Made by a program: the position numbers and the translations under genes. 40,700 nucleotides of DNA, from positions 1 through 40,700 of IMG/VR virus record IMGVR_UViG_3300044946_000010; one strand, 5' to 3'. This document shows positions 2,341 through 30,813 of the stretch, in pieces. Origin of the DNA: a virus. Position 1 is the first letter of the stretch. Each line of letters starts with the position of its first letter. Below the pieces are notes generated by a model. That model saw nothing but the letters and a program-made list of their open reading frames with translations. It was not told where the DNA came from and did not search any database.

Positions 2341-4101
2341 TCACTGCTTGAAGTAATTCAACTGCCCGATCAGCGTGCTAGAGTTCGAGAAATTACTGTT
2401 GGTGAGCGAACCCGTTCCACTAGTGCCCTGAATGTAAAGATTGACGGTTGTTCCGCCTGCGGCGGCTTCGGCCAAAATCGGACCGGTCAATAATGCCATA
2501 CCGGAAGAACCAAGGACTGGGGATACACCACCATAGTAGAAGCCGCTGGCTGGTCCAGCCTGAATCGGCAATCCAGTTAGCGTCGCCGCACCGGTGGACG
2601 AACCGACCGCTGACAGGGATACATAGAACTGCACGGATACCTGCATCCCCTTGACTTCATATTCGCATGACTGTGTGTTGTATGTGAGTCCTGTCGTGCC
2701 ACCCCCAAATGCAATGCCAAGCGCGCACGAAGCGGGGCCGCCATTGATGCGGTTGCCGCTCGAACTGCCGGTTTCGGTGATGCCGTTATATGCAAGGACC
2801 GTATTGCCAGTTTGAGTCATCGCATGCAATTCGCTGCTCGTCGTGTTGTTCAAGACGACTGCATACGAACCATTATTGCTTTTGTTGTAGTTATGGATAT
2901 CGGAGTCGATAGTCACATTATTCGAGTTTGTGACATAGACTCCATCGTCAGCGGTCGCGATATGCAGTCCACGTACGGTCGTGTACGTCACACCATTCAT
3001 TAGAAATGCATACGTAGCGCTATTACCGGCCCAGACGTTGGAGAACATCACATCCTTCACGCCCTGAGCATTCGTGCCCTGCTGTAGGGTGATGCTTGGT
3101 CCGCTAGTGGTGTCAGAGACGATGTTGCTGAAGTGACCAAACTGGCACGGCACAGTGCTTTGCACGAAGGAATAGCCGCACAGAGCCCATCCATTGATGC
3201 CGTTTTCAGCCTCATCATTGCTGAACTTTGAGCCAGCGAAGTATCGAAGTTCATAACCGATATTCGAAACCCCCTGTACGGTCGTGTTCGTGACGATCAG
3301 CGCGTTATTTGGCATCGCGTCTGAAACATTCGTCGGTACGCCGCCGTACAGTCCGTCATAATTTTGCTGGGCGCCAGAACCATACACCCGCACGTTATCA
3401 ATAACTGTCTGCCACTGGTCCTGCATATCGAGTGCATGGCGGCAACCCGTGAAGAACATATCCCGAATAATGCCGCTGTTGACATATGTGAAGCTGATTC
3501 CGTGTGCACTGGTGTTTGACAATCCAGGGCACTGAATCCACATCGACTCAACTCCTGTGTGGTTGTCAACTGCTGAGAGCGTACCATTGTCAACGACGGC
3601 GGCCGCGTTGGCCGTCATAATCAACGCTGTCGCCTCTCGACTAGCACCAACTAGCACGACACCGCTGCGGCCCGTCAGGTTCAGCGACGCGCTGATTTTG
3701 TACTTTCCCGGAGGGAAGTACACAATACCGCCGTTCTGTACGACGCTGGTGACCGTAGAAAAATAGTTGATCGCGTTTTGGATGCCGGTTGTGCTATCGG
3801 CTATGCCGGTCGGATCAACTCCAGAGAAGTCAAGTACAGAGATCCAATCCTGGAATTTATTCGTCAGTGGTCGTGCAACACTCCCGGTCGCCCCTTGCAA
3901 ATACTGAAGCTGGCTCGTAGCTCCTGTGGCTGTAGTCGCTCCTGTACCACCAGAGGCAATAGGAAGCGGATTTGTAAGCCCGATCGTGGCAGCATTCAGC
4001 GTGCCATCAATCGTAACGTTATTGAAATGCGGAGAGGGATAACTCTGCGCGAGCGCCAGCATAGGCAGCCAAAGCACCGAGATCAGGATTCTTTTGATCA
4101 T
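2341..4101 (-). CDS. Tailspike with pectate-lyase-like beta-helix and N-terminal signal peptide
   Basis: A 586-aa protein from the ATG at 4101, one base after the upstream stop (4103-4105). An open frame extends to 4206, but that part overlaps the upstream gene and looks non-coding. Residues 1-18 form a classic Sec signal: MIKR, a hydrophobic core, then LALAQ at the likely cleavage site. Residues about 85-150 hold the pectate-lyase superfamily pattern (VLDFSGVDPTGIADSTTGIQ, then GGIVYFPPGKYKIS), followed by Asn/Ser/Thr-rich repeats typical of a right-handed beta-helix, and a small beta-rich C-terminal domain. It probably binds or cleaves host surface polysaccharide. The secretion signal is odd for a virion protein assembled in the cytoplasm. 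Confidence 0.8.
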   Translation of the reverse strand: MIKRILISVLWLPMLALAQSYPSPHFNNVTIDGTLNAATIGLTNPLPIASGGTGATTATGATSQLQYLQGATGSVARPLTNKFQDWISVLDFSGVDPTGIADSTTGIQNAINYFSTVTSVVQNGGIVYFPPGKYKISASLNLTGRSGVVLVGASREATALIMTANAAAVVDNGTLSAVDNHTGVESMWIQCPGLSNTSAHGISFTYVNSGIIRDMFFTGCRHALDMQDQWQTVIDNVRVYGSGAQQNYDGLYGGVPTNVSDAMPNNALIVTNTTVQGVSNIGYELRYFAGSKFSNDEAENGINGWALCGYSFVQSTVPCQFGHFSNIVSDTTSGPSITLQQGTNAQGVKDVMFSNVWAGNSATYAFLMNGVTYTTVRGLHIATADDGVYVTNSNNVTIDSDIHNYNKSNNGSYAVVLNNTTSSELHAMTQTGNTVLAYNGITETGSSSGNRINGGPASCALGIAFGGGTTGLTYNTQSCEYEVKGMQVSVQFYVSLSAVGSSTGAATLTGLPIQAGPASGFYYGGVSPVLGSSGMALLTGPILAEAAAGGTTVNLYIQGTSGTGSLTNSNFSNSSTLIGQLNYFKQ

Positions 4102-4102
4102 G

Positions 4103-4441
4103 TCAGGATACCGAGATGACGCCGCCGTTGTTCCAAAGTTTCCCAGTGGATGCGGGCAATGTTGTCGTGCCAATCGCGCCCACCATATCCAAGAGCTGAA
4201 CGTCATTCACTGTCGTCGTTGTGATGTTGATACCGCTGATGACGAACTGATATCGACCATCGGCAGCATAGAACGAGAAATTCCCGAGAGAGTCCGTCGT
4301 CAGCGGGTTCAGAGCGACAGTCACACCGTTATCGGAATAGATTGTGGCAGGCGTTCCAGCAGGGTAAATATTCACCTGAACGCTCGCCCCAGAGATCGGA
4401 ATCCCGCTATTCCCAGCGATGCTGCTGAGATACTTTTCCAT
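4103..4441 (-). CDS. Small Ig-like / carboxypeptidase-regulatory-like tail protein
   Basis: A 112-aa protein. The start is taken at the ATG at 4441, two bases after the TGA of the upstream gene; the open frame runs further upstream, but that part is a shadow of the 102-aa gene. The pattern ISGASVQVNIYPAGTPATIY followed by TDSLGNFSFYAADGRYQF resembles transthyretin-like or carboxypeptidase-regulatory beta-sandwich domains often found in phage tail and baseplate proteins. It sits directly before the tailspike gene and may form its attachment collar, which is inference. Confidence 0.65.
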   Translation of the reverse strand: MEKYLSSIAGNSGIPISGASVQVNIYPAGTPATIYSDNGVTVALNPLTTDSLGNFSFYAADGRYQFVISGINITTTTVNDVQLLDMVGAIGTTTLPASTGKLWNNGGVISVS

Positions 4442-4443
4442 GG

Positions 4444-4752
4444 TCAGATCTTCCGATTGGTCGTCCGGTATGCCGCGTATTCTGGACCCTTCAGGATCTT
4501 CGCCACATACGGCCAGTGGTCCTTGTTCATGAAGTCCCAGCCGTACTGATTGCGGATCTTCAGCAACTCCACGACCGGCACGTTCATCGTCTGATGCAGG
4601 CCGTCCGGCATCCGCTCTGCGGTATTCTCTGCCGCGCGGCATTCGTGCGCATACTGAAGCGCCTTCTCTACGTCCTGCTCGTAGCTCACGAAGATCTTTC
4701 CGTCTTCCTCGTGATAGGCCGTGCGCATCCCGTCGGGGCTGTTCGTGGTCAT
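4444..4752 (-). CDS. Hypothetical 102-aa protein between tail genes
   Basis: A soluble, charged 102-aa protein that I cannot assign to a named family. It has an acidic first third (EEDGKIFVSYEQDVEKAL) and a basic, aromatic-rich C-terminus. It lies in the late tail operon, 13 nt after the 98-aa gene, and its stop is two bases from the start of the Ig-like gene, so it is almost certainly co-translated with tail proteins. It could be a tail assembly factor or a minor virion protein. Confidence 0.65.
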   Translation of the reverse strand: MTTNSPDGMRTAYHEEDGKIFVSYEQDVEKALQYAHECRAAENTAERMPDGLHQTMNVPVVELLKIRNQYGWDFMNKDHWPYVAKILKGPEYAAYRTTNRKI

Positions 4753-4765
4753 GGCTTATCTCAAA

Positions 4766-5062
4766 CTAGTGAGTAACAGCGACAATATTCAGCGTGCCGC
4801 CTGCTGTATCTTGAATCACGGCAATCATTTCGCCCGCTTGGATGCGGATGATGTACGGCGGATCGCTAGCCTTGATCAGCATGTCTTTCGTTGTGGCAGT
4901 CGGATTTGCGCCGACAGCGACATGACAATTGGCCGTTGCTGAAATTTGCACAGCTTGCTGTGTATCAGTGAATGCCGAGGACTGCGCAGAAGTCCCGGAG
5001 AACGTGACGTTCTGACCGGTCCCAGCAATCGGACGCCAGATCGAAATAGGTGACCAAGCCAT
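4766..5062 (-). CDS. Small beta-rich virion protein (hypothetical)
   Basis: A 98-aa protein rich in Thr, Ala and Val with alternating beta patterning and no charged helices, the style of a small phage structural protein. It is the first gene after a strong intrinsic terminator at 5075-5100, so its expression depends on read-through or a promoter I cannot see. Position between the capsid block and the tail block would fit a minor head or tail component; I do not recognise a named family. Confidence 0.6.
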   Translation of the reverse strand: MAWSPISIWRPIAGTGQNVTFSGTSAQSSAFTDTQQAVQISATANCHVAVGANPTATTKDMLIKASDPPYIIRIQAGEMIAVIQDTAGGTLNIVAVTH

Positions 5063-5074
5063 TTATTTGCCCCA

Positions 5075-5100
5075 ATAAAAACGGGCGACCGAAGCCGCCC
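5075..5100 (-). terminator. Intrinsic terminator downstream of capsid block
   Basis: On the minus strand a 7-bp stem (arms 5094-5100 and 5083-5089, with one G-U pair) closes a UUCG loop (5090-5093) and is followed by five Ts (5077-5081). It lies 19 nt after the 234-aa gene and just before the next gene, so it should reduce transcription of the tail genes relative to the capsid. Confidence 0.85.
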
Positions 5101-5876: not shown

Positions 5877-6482
5877 TCAGCCGAGCGTATCGTAGATCGC
5901 GCCGTGGGCCTTCTCGTTCGACATTTCGAGGCAATAGTCGACCAGAAGCATCTTCTTGTCGCTGTCACCGGTCTTCGCGAGCGGAACGGTCTGGAACGGA
6001 CGCAGATACGCGACACGCACATAGTTCGGATTGATGAAAAAGCAATCAGCCGAATGCGCAAGGAAGATGTCCGGCACGATCTTGACTTGACCGAAATCGC
6101 CTTCATAGATCGCGACAGCCGTGCGCAGCACTTGATCTTCCACTTCCGTGAAACGCGTGCCCGGACCCGTGAACTTCGAGATGTTCGTCTTGTTCACCGG
6201 CGAGACCAGCGCGTATTCCGGGCTTTCACCGGACGACGAGAAGATCTTCTGAAGCACCGAAATCACTTGCGCTTCCGTGATCGCGACCGGCGTGCCGTCA
6301 TACGTGCGGGTGCTCGAACCATCGGTCCAGCCGTTCGCGGCCAGCGACGGGTTTGCACCGCCGTTACCGTTCTGGAAAACCGTGTTCGTGTACAGCCAGC
6401 ACGGCAGACCAGCAGTGAGCGACGGCGTAGCCGACGAGCCTGCGTTCTTCGCCTTGTTCTGCGTCAGAACACCTTCGATATC
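5877..6482 (-). CDS. Major capsid protein, exon 2 (SU10/DUF5309-like)
   Basis: This encodes the C-terminal 201 residues of the coat protein. The exon opens with DIEGVLTQNKAKNAGSS, the direct continuation of ...KKSKELKR at the end of exon 1, and later contains the coat-type beta-rich segment VKIVPDIFLAHSADCFFINP and a PLAKTGDSDKK loop. Joined to exon 1 (7404-7772) it gives a 324-aa protein of normal length for this coat family. An ATG at 6485 allows an apparent independent ORF, but its first codon comes from the intron's last bases. The intron between the exons must be removed from the RNA to make full-length protein. Confidence 0.9.
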   Translation of the reverse strand, partial: DIEGVLTQNKAKNAGSSATPSLTAGLPCWLYTNTVFQNGNGGANPSLAANGWTDGSSTRTYDGTPVAITEAQVISVLQKIFSSSGESPEYALVSPVNKTNISKFTGPGTRFTEVEDQVLRTAVAIYEGDFGQVKIVPDIFLAHSADCFFINPNYVRVAYLRPFQTVPLAKTGDSDKKMLLVDYCLEMSNEKAHGAIYDTLG

Positions 6483-7403
6483 CATCAGTTACGCTAAGGC
6501 TCTTTATCCTTAGCTCTCCGGCTTTCGTCGGAGTGTCGGACTATATCTCCAACCACTTGTTGCTCTTGCTACGGTTCGCCGCCCAAGTCAGGATTTGAAG
6601 GTTCCACTCGACATGCAATCCGCACACGTTCTTGCCGTTCAACGGCACGACATGATCGACCTCATGCTGAACGCCCGTCTCTTCGGTAAGACGCTTCGCT
6701 TCAACATAGATCGCTTCGATTGCTTTCAAGTCTGCCCATCCGGGAGTCGCCTGCAACTTTTGCGCTCGCCGCTTGGCCCATTTCGCCAGATAAGCCGACT
6801 TGTTCTGCCGATAGTGCTCCCGTCCGTACTCAAGCAGCGCTTGCCGTACTTCAGGGCTTGATTCCTTCCTTTCCTTTCGTTTAGCTAGGAGTTCGTCACG
6901 ATTCTCGATCCATCTTTGAGTGTGACGCTCTTTATCGCGCGCTTTCACTTCTTCGCGCGCCTGATAAGTCTTGGTTCGCTCCAGAACCGCATCGCGATTC
7001 TTGACGTAGTAGTCGGCCATGTACTGCTTGATTTCCGACGCCTTGACTTTTCGGCGCACTGCGCACTGCACTAAACGCTTTTCTCGGTTCGCATCGTAAG
7101 TGCGTTTCGAGGCTACTGCGTAACAGCTTTTGCAGGATGAGGTTAGCTTGCCTTTGCTCCGATAGAAATCAGAAAAAGACTTCTCAATCTTGCATTTAGA
7201 ACAACACTTGGTTGCCGGGCACTCGTGGGAATCCATAACCCAATTTTACGGAAATTGGGCTGTATTTCCTAGTCTCTGAACCTTCCAGTCGTTACCTTCT
7301 GGCTTGGCTGCTGATTGGCTTGCGGGCGGTGTCAACCCGTTTAGCTTTCCAGACAATTCACCCGGTGTTTACTCGCTACTTACGCAGCGAGGGCGCGAAA
7401 TCC
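6483..7403 (-). ncRNA. Group I self-splicing intron in the capsid gene
   Basis: A 921-nt insertion interrupts the coat gene between Arg123 (CGT) and Asp124. The 5' exon ends in U and the intron ends in G, as group I introns require. The intron holds the conserved core elements: an R-type (P7 5') sequence GTTCAGAGACTAG at 7269-7281 and an S-type (P7 3') sequence GAGATATAGTCC at 6538-6549, whose GACTA/TAGTC bases can pair. A possible P1 uses exon GCGU with an intron GCGC guide. An HNH endonuclease ORF fills the loop between R and S. Exact splicing restores a continuous coat protein, which is strong support for the boundaries. Confidence 0.9.
6541..7236 (-). CDS. Intron-encoded HNH homing endonuclease
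   Basis: A 231-aa protein. It begins with a zinc-finger-like Cys cluster (C11, C12, C15, then C35 and C38) and a long, highly charged helical middle (residues about 60-165). It ends in an HNH motif, with HEVDHVVPLNGKNVCGLH and then NLQILTWAANRSKSNKW (about 189-228). Such enzymes cut intron-less alleles so that repair copies the intron. The TAG stop lies inside the intron's P7 3' core sequence, so the ORF and ribozyme are tightly interlocked. The start is the ATG at 7236, 23 nt after the capsid-gene intron core begins to give way to AT-rich sequence. No strong Shine-Dalgarno is visible, so expression may be low. Confidence 0.9.
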   Translation of the reverse strand: MDSHECPATKCCSKCKIEKSFSDFYRSKGKLTSSCKSCYAVASKRTYDANREKRLVQCAVRRKVKASEIKQYMADYYVKNRDAVLERTKTYQAREEVKARDKERHTQRWIENRDELLAKRKERKESSPEVRQALLEYGREHYRQNKSAYLAKWAKRRAQKLQATPGWADLKAIEAIYVEAKRLTEETGVQHEVDHVVPLNGKNVCGLHVEWNLQILTWAANRSKSNKWLEI

Positions 7404-7772
7404 ACGCTTCAGCTCCTTCGACTTCTTCATGAGCTGATAGCCCATCTTGTTCGTTCCGCCCGCGGCGATCACGGCCTGACCCTTGCCGGAGAGCTGGACG
7501 ACCTTGTTCGACGTCTGGACGTAGTTGCCCATACGAGCAGTCGGAACGAGAGCCTGAGCGGCCGGATCGTCACCTTCGATCTGGGCGTTGTTCAAGTTCT
7601 GCGCGGCCAGAGAATCGGTATCCCACTCATGATTCCCTTGAGTGGCCCGGTTCTTCTTGCTCATGTTGAGCAGAGGCGTCTTGTACGGATCGACGTTGAA
7701 GATGAGATTCGAGAGGTCTTCTCGAATGTTCGTTTGCTGATACGTTTGGTAAGTATTGCTCGGCACGCTCAT
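7404..7772 (-). CDS. Major capsid protein, exon 1 (SU10/DUF5309-like)
   Basis: This encodes residues 1-123 of the coat protein. The N-terminal pattern TNIREDLSNLIFNVDPYKTP followed by ..TQGNHEWDTDSLA is characteristic of the DUF5309/SU10 coat family, and the exon ends ..MGYQLMKKSKELKR. Without splicing, translation would add seven intron-coded residues and stop at 7380-7382, giving a 130-aa truncated product. GGAGGG stands just before the ATG at 7772. The scaffold gene lies directly upstream, the usual capsid gene order. Confidence 0.9.
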
Positions 7773-7787
7773 GGCGCCCTCCTATTA

Positions 7788-8840
7788 CTATCGCGCGAAG
7801 AAGTCGAACGCCGCTGCTTGGGCGTCCTCATCGCGGGGATTTCGGTTGAGCCGGTCCAGTACTTGCTTGCGACCGACTTCGCTAGGGTTGACATCCTGCC
7901 GAGATCCCGGGGCGGCCATCTTGGGCGCTTGCCGAATCTGTTTCAGGGCCTCAGGGCTCGACGCTTGGAGTGCCTGATAACGCGCCGCATCATGCAGAAT
8001 TCGCATGTAGCGGTGGTCGTAGATCTGGGCCAGCTCGGCGTCCTTGAACCCAAGGCTTTGGGCGTACTTCGTCATTGCTTCCTTGTCTTGCTTGAACGTC
8101 TCGGGCGTGCGCCATTCGGGCACTGCATCCATGAGACGTTGATGCTCCTGCGAGAGCATGTTTTGTATGCTTTGCTGCTGCTCGATCTGCTGCTGCTGAG
8201 CCTGCTGATTGAGCGCGCCGATGTAGTTCTGGATCTGACCTTGGCGCTGCTGGAATTCGGCTTGAAGAGCGGCGAATTCGGCCGGGTTCTGAGCACGGAG
8301 CGCATTCCAGTCGACGCGCTGATACTCGTGAGTGAGCATCTGCATCGCCACGTTGCCGAGATCCTGGTTCTGCTTGAACTGGGTCTGCAACTGCTGAACG
8401 TGCTGAGCGCGTTCGTTTTCCCAGGCGCTACGATCGTTCGCCAGTTGGACAGACTTGTTATTGACGTGGCCTTTGAGCTGGTAGCTCTCGATCAGATCGG
8501 CGAGTGTAGCCTTCCCATCGACGCCATCGATCTTCGTCGCGAGATTAAGCGCGCGAACCGACTGCGGGTCGATCTTGTGAGCGGCGAGCAGTTCGTCGAG
8601 CGTCGCGTATTGCGGACCCTCGGCCGGTTGCTGGTCGCCTTGCTGCTGTTGCTGCGCCTGAGCGTTAGGATCGATCTGGGCCGCGCCATCCGACTGCTGA
8701 GCGGCATTCTGATCAGCCGAAGCCGCATCCGGCTTCTTCGGCACATCAACAATGCTGTGTTCACTGAAAAAGCTATCGAACTGCGGGCTCGAACTGATTG
8801 CGGCGCCCTCGGTCGGGGTGGTCGCTTGAATGTCGCTCAT
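7788..8840 (-). CDS. Scaffold protein
   Basis: A 350-aa protein. The acidic, low-complexity N-terminus has a Gln-run near residues 62-67. A long helical Gln/Ala-rich coiled-coil region follows (about 145-255, including QQRQGQIQ and QQQQIEQQQ), and the C-terminus is basic and ends in ..AAFDFFAR. This architecture, and the position between portal-side genes and the coat gene, fit the assembly scaffold that directs procapsid formation and then leaves. GAGG lies about 10 nt before the ATG. A terminator stands immediately upstream, so scaffold and coat may be transcribed separately from the portal block. Confidence 0.8.
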   Translation of the reverse strand: MSDIQATTPTEGAAISSSPQFDSFFSEHSIVDVPKKPDAASADQNAAQQSDGAAQIDPNAQAQQQQQGDQQPAEGPQYATLDELLAAHKIDPQSVRALNLATKIDGVDGKATLADLIESYQLKGHVNNKSVQLANDRSAWENERAQHVQQLQTQFKQNQDLGNVAMQMLTHEYQRVDWNALRAQNPAEFAALQAEFQQRQGQIQNYIGALNQQAQQQQIEQQQSIQNMLSQEHQRLMDAVPEWRTPETFKQDKEAMTKYAQSLGFKDAELAQIYDHRYMRILHDAARYQALQASSPEALKQIRQAPKMAAPGSRQDVNPSEVGRKQVLDRLNRNPRDEDAQAAAFDFFAR

Positions 8841-9449: not shown

Positions 9450-9639
9450 GTGGCTTCCTCTCGTGGCAAGCCCGGAGCGACAACTGCTTGCAGCACCGCT
9501 GGCATGTCGTCCAGTAAAAGTGATCGAAGACACCAGGAATCGGTGCAGGACATTCGCAAGACTGCCGATGCTTTCGAATGGTGCCTTGCGCGAACAAGTC
9601 GGCAACCGTTTCGCCAACGATCGACGAAAGATCATCCAC
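9439..9639 (-). CDS. Small Cys-rich (zinc-ribbon-like) protein
   Basis: A 66-aa protein with a GTG start at 9639 that overlaps the last 8 bases of the portal gene. It contains CEC followed 17 residues later by CQRCC, a plausible zinc-binding knuckle, and ends in a basic HERKPH tail. Its overlaps with both neighbours fit the translational coupling style of this genome. A shadow ORF cannot be fully excluded. Confidence 0.5.
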   Translation of the reverse strand: MDDLSSIVGETVADLFAQGTIRKHRQSCECPAPIPGVFDHFYWTTCQRCCKQLSLRACHERKPHVA

Positions 9640-11782
9640 GCTGCACCTCGTTCACGTCGTGATTGACCATTTGACCGGCATCGGCTGCCGGATCTTGCTT
9701 AAGCTGGCTCGCGACGATCTGGCCGATGATCTTGACGACCGTCTGCCATTCCTGCGAGTTGATCTGAGCCATCTGCATGTCGCGGTCTTGCGCATTCTGC
9801 TGCGCGCCGTGCACGACTTCAGCCTGCGCCTGTTGTTGCTCAGCAGTAGCTTTGATTTGCTCTGTTTGAAGACGCATGCCGGCGATTTGCTTGTCTGCGT
9901 CAGCCTTCATCTGAGCAGCGGCAATGCGCGGGTCTTGCGGTTGTTGCGCCCGCTGCTGCATCGCTTGCTGGAACTCAGGCGAATCCGGGGCCATAGCGAA
10001 CTCGCTCGGGTTCTCGAAGCCCAGCAAGTGGCAGACCTTCTTGAATGTGTTGAACGCTTGCTGCGGGCCCACCATGCCGAACGACGCCAACTCTTTCTGC
10101 GCCTGTCCGAGCAACATGATGTTCTGCCGCGCTTCCTCGCGCGTGCCGGAACCCAAGCCGACGTTGATCAGCAGTTCAGTGCGCTCGCTCCATTCGCCCG
10201 GGTTTTGCTGCACCCAGCGACCGCCAGTGATCTGGAGCACCATCTGCTGGTCCTGATGGCGGCGCAGCAGGTTGTGGATCTTCTGGAACGTGTCTTTGAC
10301 GCCTTCAGCGAGCAACCGAGCTACCAACTGCACCTTCTTCGCCGCCGCAGCCATCGAAGCCAGTTGACCGCCCTTCGTCACGTCCTGCAATGCGTCAGCG
10401 TCGACGCCCATCGTGTCCTTGCCGATCCCCGTGCGCATCTCGCGTTGGAGATCGCAGTACTCAAGCGCCGGCACGATCTGACTCATCATGTTAGATGGCG
10501 TCGTGAGCGGCATGATCACGCCTTCCGGCGGCCCATCCGTGCGCACGATCCGACCCGGGCGCGAAACCAGCAGGTCGCCCATGTTGACCTTCTGCCAGTC
10601 AACCGCGTAACCCTGGTTGTTCGTGATGTAGAGATTGTCGAGCGCTTGACGGAACAGGGTCGTCTTGATCACCTGAAGGTCGTACAGCAGATCGTAGTAG
10701 CTGATCCCGACGTGGCGATGCGGCATACGGATTGCCGAGCACGACGTGAAGCTCAGCTCTTCCACCTCGTCGTTGTCGAGGATCTTATCGCCGCCTACCA
10801 TCACGCGGCGAAGCTCTGCGATCCCGTCACCATCGTAATCGATACGAATGAAGACCGTCCGCAGGCTACAAAGCTGGCTAGCCGGATCGGTCGGCTCTTC
10901 CTCGCTCAACTGATCCGTCACCTCATCGCGAGCCAGAGCGATCAGATCGAGCCAATCCGGCGTCGCGATCTCGATCGCATCGACCTTCGCCGGATCAAAT
11001 CCCATCTGCTTCAGTTCGGAGCGCGATTTCTTGCTCTCGTGCTCAACGAACGGCGCGCCTTCCAAGCCCTGCCGAGCCTGAGGCGAGACACGCATCTCTT
11101 CAGGCGGCACGCAATCGACTTGCACCCGGCCGACATTGCACGTGCGACGAATCTTAAGATCGAACATGGGCTGAGGCTGCGGACCATTCGGTCCTGGCAT
11201 CAGGACTTGCTTCTCGTCCTGCTCCATCACCTCGATTTCGTCGCCGCGTTCTTTGGCGTCTTGCATCAGCATCGTGACTTCCGGCACACCAAGGCCGGAA
11301 TACGTCTCGACGCTCGTCTTGCGCTTCTTCAGCCAGTACGACGAGATGTAACCGTTGCGCAGCAACAGCGCGTCTTTGAAGAAGTCATGCAGGATAAAGA
11401 AGCCGTCGTTCTGCCGCATGAAGACGTGGTTCACAACCTCCGTCTCGATCTCGGCTTGATCCTCATCATCTGGGGCCTGCGGATCGAACTGCACCGGCTT
11501 GCCCGAGCCAACGAAAATCTCCATCAGCGTCGGCATAATCCACTCGACCGTATCGCGGAGCTCAGGCATTACGATCTGGGAGCGGTCGTCTACCTCATTG
11601 CCGAGCGGGCGAGCGTAATAGGCGTTCAGCGCGTTGTAGCGGTCGATCTCCAGCGTCGTCATGATCTGGCTGGCCGGCTTAACGCTGCCGCCAACAGACG
11701 GACCGACAGAGACGCTGGAGCCGAGCGCGGCCTTTTCCCTCTGGCCGATTTCCGCGAGCAGCTCGGTTTCTGTCATTGCCAT
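9632..11782 (-). CDS. Portal protein (SU10/P22-type)
   Basis: A 716-aa portal of the long (about 700-residue) class found in P22-like and SU10-like phages. Twelve copies form the DNA entry and exit pore at one capsid vertex. The N-terminal wing region shows RSQIVMPELRDTVEWIMPTL (about residues 67-86) and FFKDALLLRNGYISSYW (about 133-150). The C-terminal part (about 620-700) is a Gln/Ala-rich helical barrel or tail with repeated QMKADADKQIAGM-type helices. It follows the terminase genes and a small coiled-coil protein with a TAATG overlap. GGAG lies 9 nt before the ATG at 11782. Confidence 0.9.
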   Translation of the reverse strand: MAMTETELLAEIGQREKAALGSSVSVGPSVGGSVKPASQIMTTLEIDRYNALNAYYARPLGNEVDDRSQIVMPELRDTVEWIMPTLMEIFVGSGKPVQFDPQAPDDEDQAEIETEVVNHVFMRQNDGFFILHDFFKDALLLRNGYISSYWLKKRKTSVETYSGLGVPEVTMLMQDAKERGDEIEVMEQDEKQVLMPGPNGPQPQPMFDLKIRRTCNVGRVQVDCVPPEEMRVSPQARQGLEGAPFVEHESKKSRSELKQMGFDPAKVDAIEIATPDWLDLIALARDEVTDQLSEEEPTDPASQLCSLRTVFIRIDYDGDGIAELRRVMVGGDKILDNDEVEELSFTSCSAIRMPHRHVGISYYDLLYDLQVIKTTLFRQALDNLYITNNQGYAVDWQKVNMGDLLVSRPGRIVRTDGPPEGVIMPLTTPSNMMSQIVPALEYCDLQREMRTGIGKDTMGVDADALQDVTKGGQLASMAAAAKKVQLVARLLAEGVKDTFQKIHNLLRRHQDQQMVLQITGGRWVQQNPGEWSERTELLINVGLGSGTREEARQNIMLLGQAQKELASFGMVGPQQAFNTFKKVCHLLGFENPSEFAMAPDSPEFQQAMQQRAQQPQDPRIAAAQMKADADKQIAGMRLQTEQIKATAEQQQAQAEVVHGAQQNAQDRDMQMAQINSQEWQTVVKIIGQIVASQLKQDPAADAGQMVNHDVNEVQRG

Positions 11783-12021: not shown

Positions 12022-13329
12022 TTAGACGATCCCGAGTTTTCCGTATTGGATCGGCTTCATTTCCTTCGGCTCCTGCCAAATGACAGCAGCCAATCCCGCA
12101 GCATCCGCGCTATGCGAAGACCAATCGTGGTCAGGGCCGAGGCCGATCTCGCGCTCAACGTCTCGCTTCTCGTGATACCAGCCCAGTGCGGCCCGGCCCG
12201 CTTCAGTCGTAGCCTCATTGAAGCGCATCTGCGGGAACAGCACGCGCATGCGATCAATGCGTGCCATCGCGGCTCCGCGTCCTTGGTTAGGCACCACGGT
12301 CACCGAGTAACCTGCGCCTCGCAGGACGCTCTCATACGACACGGCGAATACCTTGTCGTGTGTCGCGCCATCGTGGGGGAGCCAGAACTGCGCTCTGCTG
12401 GGTTCGTAGCCTTGCGACCTGCACCAGGCTATGTGAGCGTCGACGGGCTGACCTACGGCTTCGTAGTGATTCACAAACCGAATCTCGCGGCCGATGAACT
12501 GAACCGCCCAGATCGCGAACGCGTCGGCCTTTGCTCCCGTGCCACCGATGTCGCATACCAAGCGGATCGTCATCAGCGGATCGGCAGGGAAAAAACCAAT
12601 CCGCCCTTCGTCCTTCGCCTTCTGGAGATGCTTGGCGAAGTATGCGCCTTCCAGCGTAGTAACGAAATCGCCTTCCCAGATGTGCGCGTATTGCTCGGGT
12701 CGGTCTTCCAAATCCCGCTGCCGATCGCGCTCCAGCTTGGCTGGGAACTTTGGATTGTCGCGCCAGTTCAGCTCGACGCCCTTTATGCGTACATCCTTGC
12801 TGCCGCGGAAGCGCTTCTCAACAGGCGATGTCTTCCGCTTCGGATTCCATGTAATCCATAGCTCAGCATTCCAGCCTTCGCCTTCCTCGCGAAGCGTCGG
12901 GATCAGTGTTGTCCAAGCCTCATCAGTGACCGGCTCAGCCTCATCAACCCAGCATACGAGAATCCGGCCCTTCGACTTGATGCTGGCGATGTTCCGATCC
13001 AAGCCGGCGAATACGAACGAAATACGCCCGTCGCGCGACTTGATGTAATTGTCGCCAATGTCGTAATACGACTTGAGGAACGGCTCATCCTCGATCGCCC
13101 GCTTGCATTCCTCAAGCGACGAATCGGACAGCGAGTTCATGAACTGCCGAGCGCAGAGCAAAATGCCCGTGATGCCCGACATGCCGAAGATGTAGCCCTT
13201 CACCGCGACCATCTTAGCGAAGCTGCGGGTCTTGCCTGAGCCGCGCCCACCGTGGCTATACCTTACGTCGGCCTCTCCGTCGAAGACCGGTATCAGCTTC
13301 TTAGGAAGCTTGATCTGCGCCGTTGTCAT
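12022..13329 (-). CDS. terL: Terminase large subunit
   Basis: A 435-aa DNA-packaging motor of the PBSX/Terminase_3 type. The Walker A motif GGRGSGKT is at residues 27-34, and Walker B (ILVCWVDEAE) places D129 and E130 for ATP hydrolysis. The C-terminal RNase H-like nuclease has candidate metal ligands D260 (VCDIGGTGAKADAF), D320 (WLPHDGA) and D409 (SSHSADA). The length is normal for the family. It overlaps the small-subunit candidate by 29 nt and is followed directly by the coiled-coil gene. Headful packaging is common for this type but cannot be shown from sequence alone. Confidence 0.93.
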   Translation of the reverse strand: MTTAQIKLPKKLIPVFDGEADVRYSHGGRGSGKTRSFAKMVAVKGYIFGMSGITGILLCARQFMNSLSDSSLEECKRAIEDEPFLKSYYDIGDNYIKSRDGRISFVFAGLDRNIASIKSKGRILVCWVDEAEPVTDEAWTTLIPTLREEGEGWNAELWITWNPKRKTSPVEKRFRGSKDVRIKGVELNWRDNPKFPAKLERDRQRDLEDRPEQYAHIWEGDFVTTLEGAYFAKHLQKAKDEGRIGFFPADPLMTIRLVCDIGGTGAKADAFAIWAVQFIGREIRFVNHYEAVGQPVDAHIAWCRSQGYEPSRAQFWLPHDGATHDKVFAVSYESVLRGAGYSVTVVPNQGRGAAMARIDRMRVLFPQMRFNEATTEAGRAALGWYHEKRDVEREIGLGPDHDWSSHSADAAGLAAVIWQEPKEMKPIQYGKLGIV

Positions 13330-14128: not shown

Positions 14129-14204
14129 TGGTTGCGGGGCGCGGAGTCGAACCGCATACTTCGAGCTTATGAGACTCGCCGTCTACCGGTGGCTTACACC
14201 CGCA
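14129..14204 (-). tRNA. tRNA-Met (anticodon CAU)
   Basis: A 76-nt cloverleaf with encoded CCA (14129-14131). The acceptor stem pairs TGCGGGT with CCCCGCA, with a mismatch at the seventh pair. The anticodon stem CGAGT/GCTCG closes the loop CTCATAA, with CAU at positions 34-36. The T-arm is TGCGG, loop TTCGACT, CCGCG. The D-arm is short, with only three clear pairs. The 3' half and the CGAAG after the anticodon stem resemble initiator tRNA, but the stem lacks the three G-C pairs of an initiator, and position 1-72 is a normal U-A pair. It may be elongator Met, or Ile if the anticodon C is modified to lysidine. Confidence 0.85.
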
Positions 14205-17145: not shown

Positions 17146-17180
17146 GGGCCGCGGCCGGTATTTTTCTTGGGTTTGCTCAT
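17142..17180 (-). CDS. 12-aa basic micro-ORF coupled at both ends
   Basis: MSKPKKNTGRGP. Its ATG (17178-17180) overlaps the stop of the HNH gene, and its TGA (17142-17144) overlaps the GTG start of the next gene; GAGGAG lies just upstream. It may be a coupling peptide that carries ribosomes across the gap left by the HNH insertion. Function as a peptide is unproven. Confidence 0.35.
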   Translation of the reverse strand: MSKPKKNTGRGP

Positions 17181-17779
17181 CTCCTCACTCCTTTCCCGTT
17201 GTGAGTTTTCTTCTCTGCGAACAGAGCCTCAAAATCAGAGGCACCGGCTTTCTTGCGCCTCACGATCGTAAAGTTGGAAACATTTACGCGAGGATCGCGC
17301 GCCCATTCATTCGGCGTCTTTGTTTCACCATCGAAAGTAATGGCGTGATGACCCTTATACGTGTGCCGTGGCATCCGGATGCCACGTTGCGTATTGCATG
17401 GGCTACAAAGCGGCCTCAGATTTTTCGGGTCGTTATTGGCCGGGTTCTCGTCGATATGGTCGATATGCGCCGTCTTCCACGTCAGATGCTTGCCGCATAG
17501 CTCGCACGGCGGAACGATATCCCCGATACGGTCATAAACGATCTTTCGGTGCTCCCATACCTGCCCAGTGCTATCCGCCAACGGATGATCCGGCATGTAT
17601 ATCGTCCAGTAACCCCTAGAATCCTGACGGCGAATCGTCCTTTGCTTTGGCGAAAGATGGTAGGAGCCATTCCTCATGAACCGGAAGTAATGCTTCTGGC
17701 AGACTTGCTGCTCGGTGTACATTGCGGTCCGATCGCATCCCTCGATCTTGCAATTTTTGGGTTCTACGCGCTTTTTCAC
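17177..17779 (-). CDS. Free-standing HNH endonuclease overlapping ninG
   Basis: A 200-aa protein starting at the GTG at 17779. The N-terminal Cys/His cluster (CKIEGCDRTA and CQKHYFRFM) is a likely zinc finger. The HNH core is at about residues 92-136 (CELCGKHLTWKTAHIDHIDE, then NLRPLCSPCNTQRG), and a helix-turn-helix-like DNA-contact tail follows (TPNEWARDPRVNVSNFTI). Such genes behave as homing endonucleases. Its first 164 bases overlap the 3' part of ninG in another frame, as if it had landed in the end of that gene. Confidence 0.85.
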   Translation of the reverse strand: MKKRVEPKNCKIEGCDRTAMYTEQQVCQKHYFRFMRNGSYHLSPKQRTIRRQDSRGYWTIYMPDHPLADSTGQVWEHRKIVYDRIGDIVPPCELCGKHLTWKTAHIDHIDENPANNDPKNLRPLCSPCNTQRGIRMPRHTYKGHHAITFDGETKTPNEWARDPRVNVSNFTIVRRKKAGASDFEALFAEKKTHNGKGVRR

Positions 17780-25306: not shown

Positions 25307-26077
25307 GTGGCCGCGTACTACAACGAGATCGACTCTTACTGTTGCGACTGGCTAAGCAATCTGATGGATGCTGGATATATCACCCCAGGCGTTATTTGTG
25401 ACAAATCTATTGAGGACGTTTTCCCAGATGAGCTACGAAAATTCGATCGATGCCACTTCTTTGCAGGAATCGGGGTATGGGACTACGCGCTCAACATGGC
25501 CAGATGGGGAGAAAGACCTGTTTGGACCGGTAGTGCGCCCTGCCAACCTTTCTCCGCGGCAGGCAAAGGAGCTGGGTTTGATGACGAGCGGCACCTCTGG
25601 CCTGCATGGTACTGGCTCATCGGCGAGTGCCGCCCTCCAATCATCTTTGGAGAGCAGGTTGCGAGCGGCGCTGTCGATCCTTGGATCGACCTTGTACACG
25701 CTGACATGGAAGCGCTGGACTACCCCTTCGGGTGTGTCCCGTTCCCGTCTGCGGGCGTCGGCTCCCCGCACATCCGCGACCGCGCGTACTGGATGGCCTA
25801 CGCCCCGGAGCTCGGATGGAGAGAAGAATGTGCGGACCCTGGAAGGGTCTTTGCGCGAAATCGAACGGAAGGGGTCTCCGCAAGATCTCTGTCAGGCCGC
25901 TCAACTTGTAATTGGCTTCCATTCAGAGACGGGAAAGAACGCCCTGTTGAACCCGGCACATTCCCGCTGGTTGATGGGGCTCCCTCGCGAGTGGGACGAC
26001 TGCGCGCCTACGGCAACGCCATCAACGCTTCGGCAGCACAAGCGTTCATTGAAGTAGCAATGGAGTGCATCCGATGA
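25307..26077 (+). CDS. dcm: DNA cytosine-5 methyltransferase
   Basis: A 256-aa methyltransferase with a GTG start, preceded by GAGG; an ATG at 25300 is out of frame. Motif I is at residues 51-56 (FFAGIG), motif IV at 78-83 (PCQPFS, catalytic C79), motif VI as GEQV (E116), motif VIII at 157-161 (RDRAY), and the C-terminal motif X-like part is RLRAYGNAINASAAQ. The target-recognition region is short, as in small phage enzymes. It probably protects phage DNA from restriction. Nearly its whole 3' three-quarters is overlapped by another plausible protein in a different frame. Confidence 0.9.
   Translation: MAAYYNEIDSYCCDWLSNLMDAGYITPGVICDKSIEDVFPDELRKFDRCHFFAGIGVWDYALNMARWGERPVWTGSAPCQPFSAAGKGAGFDDERHLWPAWYWLIGECRPPIIFGEQVASGAVDPWIDLVHADMEALDYPFGCVPFPSAGVGSPHIRDRAYWMAYAPELGWREECADPGRVFARNRTEGVSARSLSGRSTCNWLPFRDGKERPVEPGTFPLVDGAPSRVGRLRAYGNAINASAAQAFIEVAMECIR
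25428..26057 (+). CDS. Dual-coded protein overlapping the methyltransferase
   Basis: This is a second open frame in the same direction, 209 aa from the ATG at 25428 (the frame is open from 25368), with GAGGA upstream. It has family-like features rather than shadow composition: DLFGPVVRPANLSPRQAKEL, then LGSTLYTLTWKRW, a GWPTP motif, and a C-terminal block NPAHSRWLMGLPREWDDC. I recognise this pattern from phage proteins of unknown function found with cytosine methyltransferases. Both frames look conserved at the 3' end. It may be genuine overlapping coding, but the methyltransferase is the surer gene. Confidence 0.55.
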   Translation: MSYENSIDATSLQESGYGTTRSTWPDGEKDLFGPVVRPANLSPRQAKELGLMTSGTSGLHGTGSSASAALQSSLESRLRAALSILGSTLYTLTWKRWTTPSGVSRSRLRASAPRTSATARTGWPTPRSSDGEKNVRTLEGSLREIERKGSPQDLCQAAQLVIGFHSETGKNALLNPAHSRWLMGLPREWDDCAPTATPSTLRQHKRSLK

Positions 26078-26535
26078 GAACGTGCACAGCATGTAATGAA
26101 ACGAAACCCCTGGCGGCCTTCAGCAGGGATAAGCGTCCCGGCCATCAGGCTCGCTGCAAAGAATGCCGTAAGGCTGAAGTCAATGCATGGCGGACGAAAA
26201 ATCGCGAAGCATACAACGCAAGCGAACGTCGCAAGTATCTCGAATCGCCGGCCAAGTGGGAACGCCATCTGAAAAGCAAATACGGGATCACGGCGAAGGT
26301 ATATGACGACCTGCTCGCGGCTCAGAACGGCGCATGCGCGATCTGCGCACGAACGGCCTCCGATCTGGGCGAAACCCTTGCTGTCGATCACGACCATGTG
26401 ACCGATGCGATTCGCGGGCTTCTGTGCGCCATGTGCAATCGAATGCTGGGCTGCGCACGAGATGTTTCGGATGTTCTCCGAAGCGGTGCCGCATACCTCG
26501 ATCGCAATTCATCCTCGCCGCGCGAGACATCCTGA
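26074..26535 (+). CDS. Recombination endonuclease VII-like (HNH-fold) protein
   Basis: A 153-aa protein from the ATG at 26074, with GGAG 8 nt upstream and an ATGA overlap with the methyltransferase stop. An N-terminal zinc site (CTACNETK, then CKECRKAE) precedes the EndoVII-type core: YGITAKVYDDLLAAQNGACA, CAICARTASDLGE, then VDHDHVTDAIRGLLCAMCN. Members of this group resolve DNA branches (T4 gp49) or act as homing nucleases. Position beside recombination genes allows either. Confidence 0.88.
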   Translation: MRTCTACNETKPLAAFSRDKRPGHQARCKECRKAEVNAWRTKNREAYNASERRKYLESPAKWERHLKSKYGITAKVYDDLLAAQNGACAICARTASDLGETLAVDHDHVTDAIRGLLCAMCNRMLGCARDVSDVLRSGAAYLDRNSSSPRETS

Positions 26536-27512: not shown

Positions 27513-27964
27513 ACTTCAAAATTTCTGATGAAGATCTTGATGCGATCGACATCACGGCTCGCGCCACGTTCAAACGCCATCAAAGCGGCGTGCGCGGACA
27601 GCAAGTATCGGCGTCCGACTCATGGGATTCTCACATCGTATGGGCAACGGCTGCATTGCTCGCAGCCCGCGCCGCATCTGCCAGTGAGACGGGGGCGGAA
27701 GGGGAGATCTATCAGGTCTCGTTTGCTGACGAAGAGGGATGGTGCGATGCGCCGAAGGAAGTCTTCGACCGGCACCCTGCACACGCTCGTCGAATCGTCT
27801 ACGCCGCCCCACAGCCCGCGCAAGCCGACGCTCGGGTCGAGCCGATGGATCGCTTCATCGCTGAATTCGGGCACCGGCTCGCAACGTTACTGGGAATCGA
27901 CGCCTTCGACATTGCAGATCGCGACGCGCAGCTCGTCGCCCTTCTCCAAGGAGCCAACCAATGA
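27509..27964 (+). CDS. Hypothetical early protein (151 aa)
   Basis: ATGA overlaps at both ends. The first part (ISDEDLDAIDITARATFKRH) is helical, and the middle (EIYQVSFADEEGWCDAPKEV) resembles small repeats in phage accessory proteins that end in RRIVYAAPQ. It is a mosaic-type protein of unknown function, common in appearance among phage early regions. Confidence 0.65.
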   Translation: MNFKISDEDLDAIDITARATFKRHQSGVRGQQVSASDSWDSHIVWATAALLAARAASASETGAEGEIYQVSFADEEGWCDAPKEVFDRHPAHARRIVYAAPQPAQADARVEPMDRFIAEFGHRLATLLGIDAFDIADRDAQLVALLQGANQ

Positions 27965-28461
27965 GTCGGCGCATAAAATCCGCGCCGTCTCTAGATAGGG
28001 TCCGGGAATTGTTTTCCTACGATCCCATCGAGGGCCGATTGATAAATCGAGTAACGCGCGCGCGAAGTTTGGCTGGGGCCCCTTCGGCATATCGATCAAG
28101 CTCGATCTATCGAGAAGTATGTATGGATCAACAGCGATACCGCGAGCATCTGCTGATCTGGTTCCTTCACCATGAAACATGGCCGACAGGCCAAATAGAT
28201 CATCGTGATCGCAATAAGAAGAACAACAGGATTGAGAACCTTCGACTGGCTACAAATTCGCAGAATGCGCAAAACCAGAAGTGCCGGTCCGATTCGTCTA
28301 CCGGCGTTAAAGGCGTCAGCGCAACCGGAAAGACATTCGCTGCGCGAGTGGCCGCAGGCGGCAAGAGAATTCAGGTCTATGGCTTCGAAACAATCGCTCT
28401 CGCGAAAGAGTTTCGCGATCTTATGGCAATCATGATCCATGGAGAATTTTATGCCGAATGA
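27961..28461 (+). CDS. HNH endonuclease with AP2-like DNA-binding domain
   Basis: A 166-aa protein. The N-terminal part (LFSYDPIEGRLINRVTRAR) leads to an HNH core IDHRDRNKKNNRIENLRLAT (about residues 78-97), followed by the Asn-rich SQNAQNQK linker. The C-terminal STGVKGVSATGKTFAARVAA and FETIALAKEF segment matches AP2-type DNA-binding strands. Free-standing homing endonucleases often have this layout. It is inserted between small early genes with an ATGA overlap and could be mobile. Confidence 0.88.
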   Translation: MSRRIKSAPSLDRVRELFSYDPIEGRLINRVTRARSLAGAPSAYRSSSIYREVCMDQQRYREHLLIWFLHHETWPTGQIDHRDRNKKNNRIENLRLATNSQNAQNQKCRSDSSTGVKGVSATGKTFAARVAAGGKRIQVYGFETIALAKEFRDLMAIMIHGEFYAE

Positions 28462-30156: not shown

Positions 30157-30318
30157 ATGCATACCGCCTTTCAGCGCATATTGGAGATCACGAAGGAGTG
30201 GATGAATGAGGGCAATTCATCCATCTCAGCTTGTCGGCAGAGCGTCGATGTACCGAGCGAGCGCGTGATCCTTGAGGTTGATGAATGGAAGGGAGGGCTT
30301 GCCGATCTGAATGAGTGA
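30157..30318 (+). CDS. Possible 53-aa protein at the operon end
   Basis: The ATG follows the previous stop directly, and the frame runs 53 codons (MHTAFQRILEITKEWMNE at the start). It overlaps the lipase gene on the other strand by 93 bases, where the lipase sequence is clearly real. It could be a true convergent overlap or chance. Confidence 0.3.
   Translation: MHTAFQRILEITKEWMNEGNSSISACRQSVDVPSERVILEVDEWKGGLADLNE
30200..30222. terminator. Convergent-region hairpin (possible bidirectional terminator)
   Basis: A perfect 8-bp inverted repeat (30200-30207 with 30215-30222, 7-nt loop) sits where the rightward early and leftward lysis operons meet. Neither side has a T-run, so intrinsic termination is uncertain. 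Confidence 0.35.
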
Positions 30319-30813
30319 GCCGCTTTGAGGCCATAGTGGGGGTACAGCCGGGACCGCATCATTACCATTGCGGTAGAGGTTCATGTGCGTCCCGGCAAGT
30401 ACAGTCGAGATGCTGGCATCGGGGCTTACGCGAGGCGGCGCAAAGCCCCATACCGCCTTAACCGGATTCCCATTCGCCACGAATGAAGCCGCAGCGACGA
30501 TGGCAAGCGCGGCCCCGAGGGAGTGCCCAACGAAGATCACAGAGTGCCCGCTAGCAGCGTCGATAACGTCCTGCTGAATGGTCTGGTAGGCGTTCCAGAA
30601 GCCACCGTGCACATGCCCGAGGAATGGCACCGGGTCAGGTTTTACGTCGAAGTCGGCTAGCAGATCGGCTACGCTATCGGTACCGGGGAACGCGATAACT
30701 CGACCATCTGCAACGTCTCGAACGATGGCGCAGGAAGGGCCGCTGTTCGTGCCGATATCGGGAGGCGCGTTATACGCCTCCTGAGCCAGCAAAGCGAAAT
30801 CCCTCGGAGTCAT
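30226..30813 (-). CDS. Class-3 lipase / alpha-beta hydrolase
   Basis: A 195-aa alpha/beta hydrolase. The nucleophile elbow is GHSLGA with S98; the likely acid is D152 in RNGNDAVPAVPP, and the base is H183 in LKDHALARYID, the spacing of class-3 lipases. No signal peptide or membrane segment is visible, so it is cytoplasmic until lysis. It is the last gene of the lysis operon and overlaps the lipoprotein gene by 4 nt. It may attack membrane lipids at lysis, like LysB in other systems; this is inference. Confidence 0.85.
   Translation of the reverse strand: MTPRDFALLAQEAYNAPPDIGTNSGPSCAIVRDVADGRVIAFPGTDSVADLLADFDVKPDPVPFLGHVHGGFWNAYQTIQQDVIDAASGHSVIFVGHSLGAALAIVAAASFVANGNPVKAVWGFAPPRVSPDASISTVLAGTHMNLYRNGNDAVPAVPPLWPQSGSLIQIGKPSLPFINLKDHALARYIDALPTS

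Follow-up and report, generated by a model that had tools for sequence, protein, structure and literature searches.

The 40.7-kb stretch of viral DNA analysed here (hereafter the window) very probably carries a mobile group I intron, of the IA type as judged from its P7.1 and P7.2 stems and with an HNH-type open reading frame (ORF), in a phage major capsid gene, where splicing and homing would be expected of it. Independent support was found for the group I intron, for the endonuclease ORF and for the split capsid gene; it comes from a match to a covariance model, covariation among related introns, a capsid profile and relatives in which the site is empty.

The interrupted capsid gene and its splice junction

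The major capsid gene runs on the minus strand from 7772 to 5877 and is split by a 921-nt insert into two exons.

7404 to 7772, minus strand: exon 1 of the major capsid gene, codons 1-123, ending ...AAG CGT (spliced-frame translation; alignment to intron-less relatives; PF17236 over residues 7-321)
5877 to 6482, minus strand: exon 2 of the major capsid gene, codons 124-324 (spliced-frame translation; PF17236 match; alignment to relatives)

In silico removal of 7403-6483 yielded a 324-aa capsid protein without stops, which matched the Pfam family PF17236 (SU10 major capsid; E=1.2e-81, residues 7-321, profile positions 5-290 of 292) and the PHROG family phrog_1328, "major head protein" (1.5e-79). 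The surroundings resemble a head module, with genes for a scaffold (7788-8840, phrog_3927), an SU10-type portal (9632-11782, PF23899) and a terminase (12022-13329, PF04466); a promoter scan around the capsid gene found nothing above chance. An earlier reading of the sequence alone (the sequence-only reading) had proposed that the capsid gene is split by 921 bases at 6483-7403 and that splicing gives a coat protein of normal length. Its coordinates were exact, and the split was borne out by the capsid profile and the empty-site relatives.

The position of the junction was examined in two ways. All U|...|G splice pairs near the ends of the insert were scored with the capsid profile as an unbiased test, and the proposed pair ranked first (157.4 vs 150.3 for the runner-up). 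Alignment to intron-less relatives placed the junction at KELKR^DIEG, so that both results agree with the sequence-only reading, in which splicing after a U and before a G restores KELKR|DIEG. The comparison with intron-less relatives had been suggested together with that reading; all of the best 80 capsid relatives in IMG/VR, the nearest of which shares 94% aa identity, were uninterrupted at the junction. No intron was found in these 80 or in the Paraburkholderia relative L094, and within the close clade of the window, as represented by the best 80 IMG/VR capsid relatives, the intron is known from the window only. L094 (Paraburkholderia bannensis NBRC 103871) is a bacterial genome whose capsid gene is intact, lacks the intron and encodes a protein 80% identical, a hint that phages of this group infect Burkholderiaceae.

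The 45 bases up to the junction are so conserved that phages whose capsids are 50% identical still align there at 84-89%. The bases at the junction are CGT|GAT in the window and CGC|GAC in close relatives, among which the window alone has CGT before the junction. Nearly all relatives listed have CGC, the exceptions being the more distant L025, with CGT, and L039 and L044, which the display shows shifted by one codon. For its U-G pair at the splice site a group I intron requires a T at position -1, and the CGT of the window is therefore compatible with insertion at a T that was already present as well as with coconversion.

Ribozyme structure and covariation

A covariance-model search, also suggested with the sequence-only reading, matched Rfam Intron_gpI (RF00028) to 7420-6516 on the minus strand, end to end over model positions 1-253, with 61.1 bits against a curated cut-off of 50 bits (E=3.1e-13). 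The elements of the intron are as follows.

6483 to 7403, minus strand: group I intron, 921 nt, start GGAUUUCGCGC, end UAACUGAUG with terminal G (Rfam RF00028, 61.1 bits; best splice pair; covariation with 21 related introns)
7393 to 7407, minus strand: P1, exon GCGU and intron G1 with CGCGC, U-G at the splice site (structure and covariation)
7372 to 7391, minus strand: P2 hairpin, 8 bp, GUAA loop (structure; compensatory changes in 8/8 pairs)
7359 to 7365, minus strand: P3 5' strand, CCGGGUG (Rfam; structure; covariation)
7280 to 7355, minus strand: P4-P5-P6 domain (Rfam; structure; covariation)
7270 to 7276, minus strand: P7 5' strand, R element with bulged A (structure; 100% paired, 2 pairs changed on both sides)
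7228 to 7269, minus strand: P7.1 and long P7.2 hairpin, IA-type extra stems (structure; covariation)
7215 to 7221, minus strand: P3 3' strand, inside the HNH ORF (Rfam; structure; covariation)
7209 to 7214, minus strand: P8 5' strand (structure; covariation)
6550 to 6555, minus strand: P8 3' strand (structure; covariation)
6538 to 6543, minus strand: P7 3' strand, S element UAGUCC (structure; covariation)
6516 to 6533, minus strand: P9 hairpin (structure; covariation)
6493 to 6514, minus strand: P9.2 hairpin (structure; covariation)

The group I core had previously been read from an R element at 7269-7281 and an S element at 6538-6549; we found R at about 7270-7281 and S at 6538-6549, pairing as P7 through five contiguous pairs and one further pair across the bulged A. 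Helices P1, P2, P3, P4, P5, P6, P7, P7.1, P7.2, P8, P9 and P9.2 all form, with 75 of 75 pairs standard in the window, and they include the P3-P8 and P4-P6 core with the P7 pseudoknot. The extra stems between P7 and the 3' strand of P3, P7.1 (4 bp) and P7.2 (8 bp), point to an intron of the subgroup IA type. The P10 pairing was weak or unclear, and energy-based folding of the 5' part alone was uninformative, the result not being unusual (z=-1.07). Over the whole window, Rfam found no second group I intron; a marginal tRNA match was seen at 14133-14203 on the minus strand (31.3 bits vs a cut-off of 29).

Covariation was assessed by aligning the window ribozyme, with the ORF loop omitted, to 21 capsid introns from sequence only and counting the pairs of the stated structure. 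Across these 22 introns, 89.3% of the cells were paired, and 265 cells were doubly changed, whereas shuffling gave 84 +/- 8 such cells and sliding gave no more than 54; compensatory changes were seen in most helices. P1 was paired in all scorable introns, and both partners vary in four of its five pairs; guide sequence and exon therefore change together, which in turn supports the splice sites assigned in the related introns. The U-G pair at the splice site was present in P1 in 20/20 scored introns; the site search had required a U and a G at the splice ends and had left the G partner in P1 free.

By the known mechanism, the transcript would fold, a guanosine bound in P7 would attack after the U of the P1 U-G pair, and the exons would be joined to encode the full-length 324-aa coat protein. 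An unspliced message reads from exon 1 through 7 intron codons to a stop and yields a truncated peptide of 130 aa only, so splicing must be efficient in late infection. This early stop, together with an in-frame ATG at 6485 that lies directly before exon 2 and opens a 202-aa frame, would also suit a capsid that truly consists of two chains, exon 2 being translated from the ATG abutting the 3' junction (MDIEGV...) and the insert being a decayed element. However, the ribozyme is intact, with 0/75 pairs mispaired, the close relatives all make a single chain, and most related introns end in ATG, TTG or GTG even in phase 1 or 2, where that codon is out of frame. Because the related introns end alike when out of frame, the ATG seems to belong to the intron end, and we dropped it as a start codon; a two-chain capsid is thus extremely improbable in our judgement. 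The position of the intron in the gene for the most abundant late protein also makes it conceivable that it acts as a regulatory element and sets the timing of coat protein synthesis; the sequence-only reading held that a splicing step would control the most abundant virion protein. Yet all sampled close relatives manage without the intron, and an Rfam scan of the capsid gene found no RNA family besides the group I intron. We consider such a role very improbable, and a selfish mobile intron can be explained without any control of the coat protein by splicing.

The candidate endonuclease reading frame and the probable mobility of the intron

The intron contains one long reading frame.

6541 to 7236, minus strand: candidate HNH-type homing endonuclease ORF, 231 aa (ORF list; PHROG matches; intron coordinates 168-863)

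The ORF starts in the 3' strand of P7.1, continues across P3 (3' strand) and the loop of P8, and has its stop codon in the 3' strand of P7, so that the coding sequence overlaps the catalytic core at both ends. In PHROG it matched phrog_26577 (1.8e-26) and phrog_1035, "endonuclease VII" (1.6e-18), while a Pfam search gave no HNH or other match at E<=0.001. Inspection by eye showed a zinc-ribbon-like CxxC at the N-terminal start and, at the C-terminus, the HEVDHVVPLNGK...N...N-K motif typical of HNH enzymes, in an HNH-like sequence that reads HEVDHVVPLNGKNVCGLHVEWNLQ...NRSKSNK. For the HNH endonuclease ORF named in the sequence-only reading, the PHROG endonuclease matches and the motif speak in favour, with Pfam silent at that threshold.

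None of the IMG/VR relatives of the ORF lay in an Rfam-detectable intron; the relative L085, with 64% over the C-terminal 73 aa, is outside any detectable intron. Close copies of the intron together with its ORF were sought in phage records and IMG/VR, where either the core alone or the endonuclease alone was shared, never both. As the relatives of the ORF lie outside Rfam-detectable introns, the intron and its endonuclease are probably of separate history, and a composite origin is usual for such pairs.

For the same reasons, namely the lack of a Pfam HNH match and the location of the nearest relatives outside Rfam-detectable introns, we only infer that the 231-aa protein has endonuclease activity and drives homing. 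The presumed enzyme would cut or nick capsid genes that lack the intron, close to the conserved KELKRD codons; repair templated by the copy with the intron would then spread it and convert nearby bases. A real intron that is no longer mobile, its HNH ORF being degenerate or not a homing enzyme for the capsid site, would account for the PHROG-only match, for the location of the ORF relatives and for the absence of the intron from the close capsid relatives. On the other hand, the frame is open over 231 codons from the CxxC start to the HNH-like end, it is placed within the intron as homing endonuclease genes are, and the altered -1 base is consistent with insertion or coconversion. We therefore hold an immobile intron to be unlikely and favour a mobile one.

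Three further endonuclease genes, apparently free-standing, occur in the window at 17177-17779 (HNH), 26065-26535 (endonuclease VII-like) and 27961-28461 (HNH_3). At 30226-30813 on the minus strand, next to a lysozyme-like ORF, lies an ORF with a GHSLG motif that by eye resembles a class 3 lipase, an unusual cargo for a small phage.

Related introns in SU10-type capsid genes

An exact search of IMG/VR for the P4/P6-P7 core returned at least 120 matching stretches, and the capsid profile showed that, among the matches listed, many adjoin SU10-type capsid genes; Rfam found group I introns in 9/9 of the core-match loci tested. Two further capsid-directed scans enlarged the set of split capsid genes. 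Related introns occur in SU10-type capsid genes in IMG/VR at about nine sites, at window residues ~21, 29/30 (SP^EETP), 56, 88, 112, 118, 121 and 123/124, and at ~241 (VTP^WGT), the last being given in profile positions. Two samples of 80 loci, query loci included, contained roughly 12 and 8 split capsid genes, that is, about 10-15% of loci with at least one intron in the two IMG/VR groups sampled; these counts are lower bounds, since the ranking favours intact genes.

These genes (in L310, L333, L108, L140 and others) share with the window a PF17236 capsid and a homologous ribozyme, whereas their introns are mostly ORF-less (234-273 nt), lie mostly at other sites and are found outside its close clade. 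In two distant marine phages, L310 and L333, ORF-less introns (273 and 264 nt, respectively) interrupt the gene exactly at the codon boundary used in the window (KL^DIE, phase 0) and have the same 3' end, which in L333 reads CUGAUG|GAUAU as in the window. The capsid genes of L140, L303, L160 and L219 have two introns each. A single SU10-type capsid gene in L108 (minus strand, ~3300-5077 of the reverse complement) holds four group I introns, and the three with assigned splice sites are all without a long ORF. A second candidate for an ORF-bearing capsid intron was seen in a Pseudomonadales MAG contig (L095:3273-5162), whose capsid gene is interrupted near residue 31 by 957 nt that contain an HNH-like frame of 290 codons. 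The L219 contig also gave a glutamine riboswitch match at 12501-12549 on the minus strand (RF01739, 58.5 bits).

The host genes of the same-core introns were further identified with Pfam from 71 upstream open fragments among the matches listed. These included 16 psbA and 6 SU10 capsid fragments and one each of P22 coat, Phage_capsid_2 and HK97-type capsid; DNA polymerase, terminase and tape measure genes were other hosts. Capsid genes were thus the second most frequent identified host among the matches listed, and the view that they are an uncommon intron site does not hold there, nor does it for the SU10-type family with its sites of insertion described above. Same-core introns also adjoin capsid genes or capsid-like proteins in L130, L107, L126 and L173. 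The psbA introns of phages, such as that of cyanophage S-PM2, resemble the window intron in their core motifs and in that several related introns may occupy one highly expressed gene, and differ in the host gene. In L183, three group I introns with this type of core lie in the psbA gene of a presumed cyanophage.

The ribozymes nearest to that of the window are mostly capsid introns, with up to 71% identity over ~250 nt. The ribozyme tree placed the window in a group of four (support 0.92) with the L108 intron at site 121, the second L160 intron and the L183 psbA intron; the other nodes near the window intron were weak. A capsid-only lineage was not established, given these weak nodes and the psbA intron in the supported group, and cannot be claimed from such a tree. 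We tentatively put forward, as a possibility we rate somewhat below even, that SU10-type capsid genes are a standing niche of one group I intron lineage that passes from phage to phage and, by changing its guide sequence, switches between about nine conserved sites within the gene; the capsid ribozymes would then be each other's closest relatives across sites, and the window intron would be the member that gained an HNH gene.

Introns in capsid genes are already known. Mycobacteriophage LittleE (Cluster J) has, like the window, an intron (~0.82 kb) with a homing endonuclease ORF in its major capsid gene, with a U before the intron and a G at its 3' end, and its splicing was shown by RT-PCR and N-terminal sequencing; unlike the window, it has an HK97-like coat family, a different site, a Mycobacterium host and a LAGLIDADG-like ORF on the opposite strand (PMC3706429). 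A capsid intron of Tuc2009 is cited in the same paper (PMC3706429). Group I introns are typical of the major capsid protein (MCP) genes of Delta crAss-like phages, and in one Zeta crAss-like genome the MCP is in five fragments; these unrelated gut phages resemble the window in having group I introns in major capsid genes, at times several in one gene (PMC7886860). For SU10-type capsid genes, our literature search turned up no report of introns, although this does not prove that none exists.

Annotation is misled by split capsid genes, both halves of which resemble truncated proteins, and marker-gene surveys can miss such genes; the wider recurrence in the SU10-type family deserves a proper survey. 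With introns recurring at conserved codons in an essential and strongly expressed gene, this family provides a clean comparative system for studying intron site switching and the tolerance of phages for splicing in the late transcript that they make most of.
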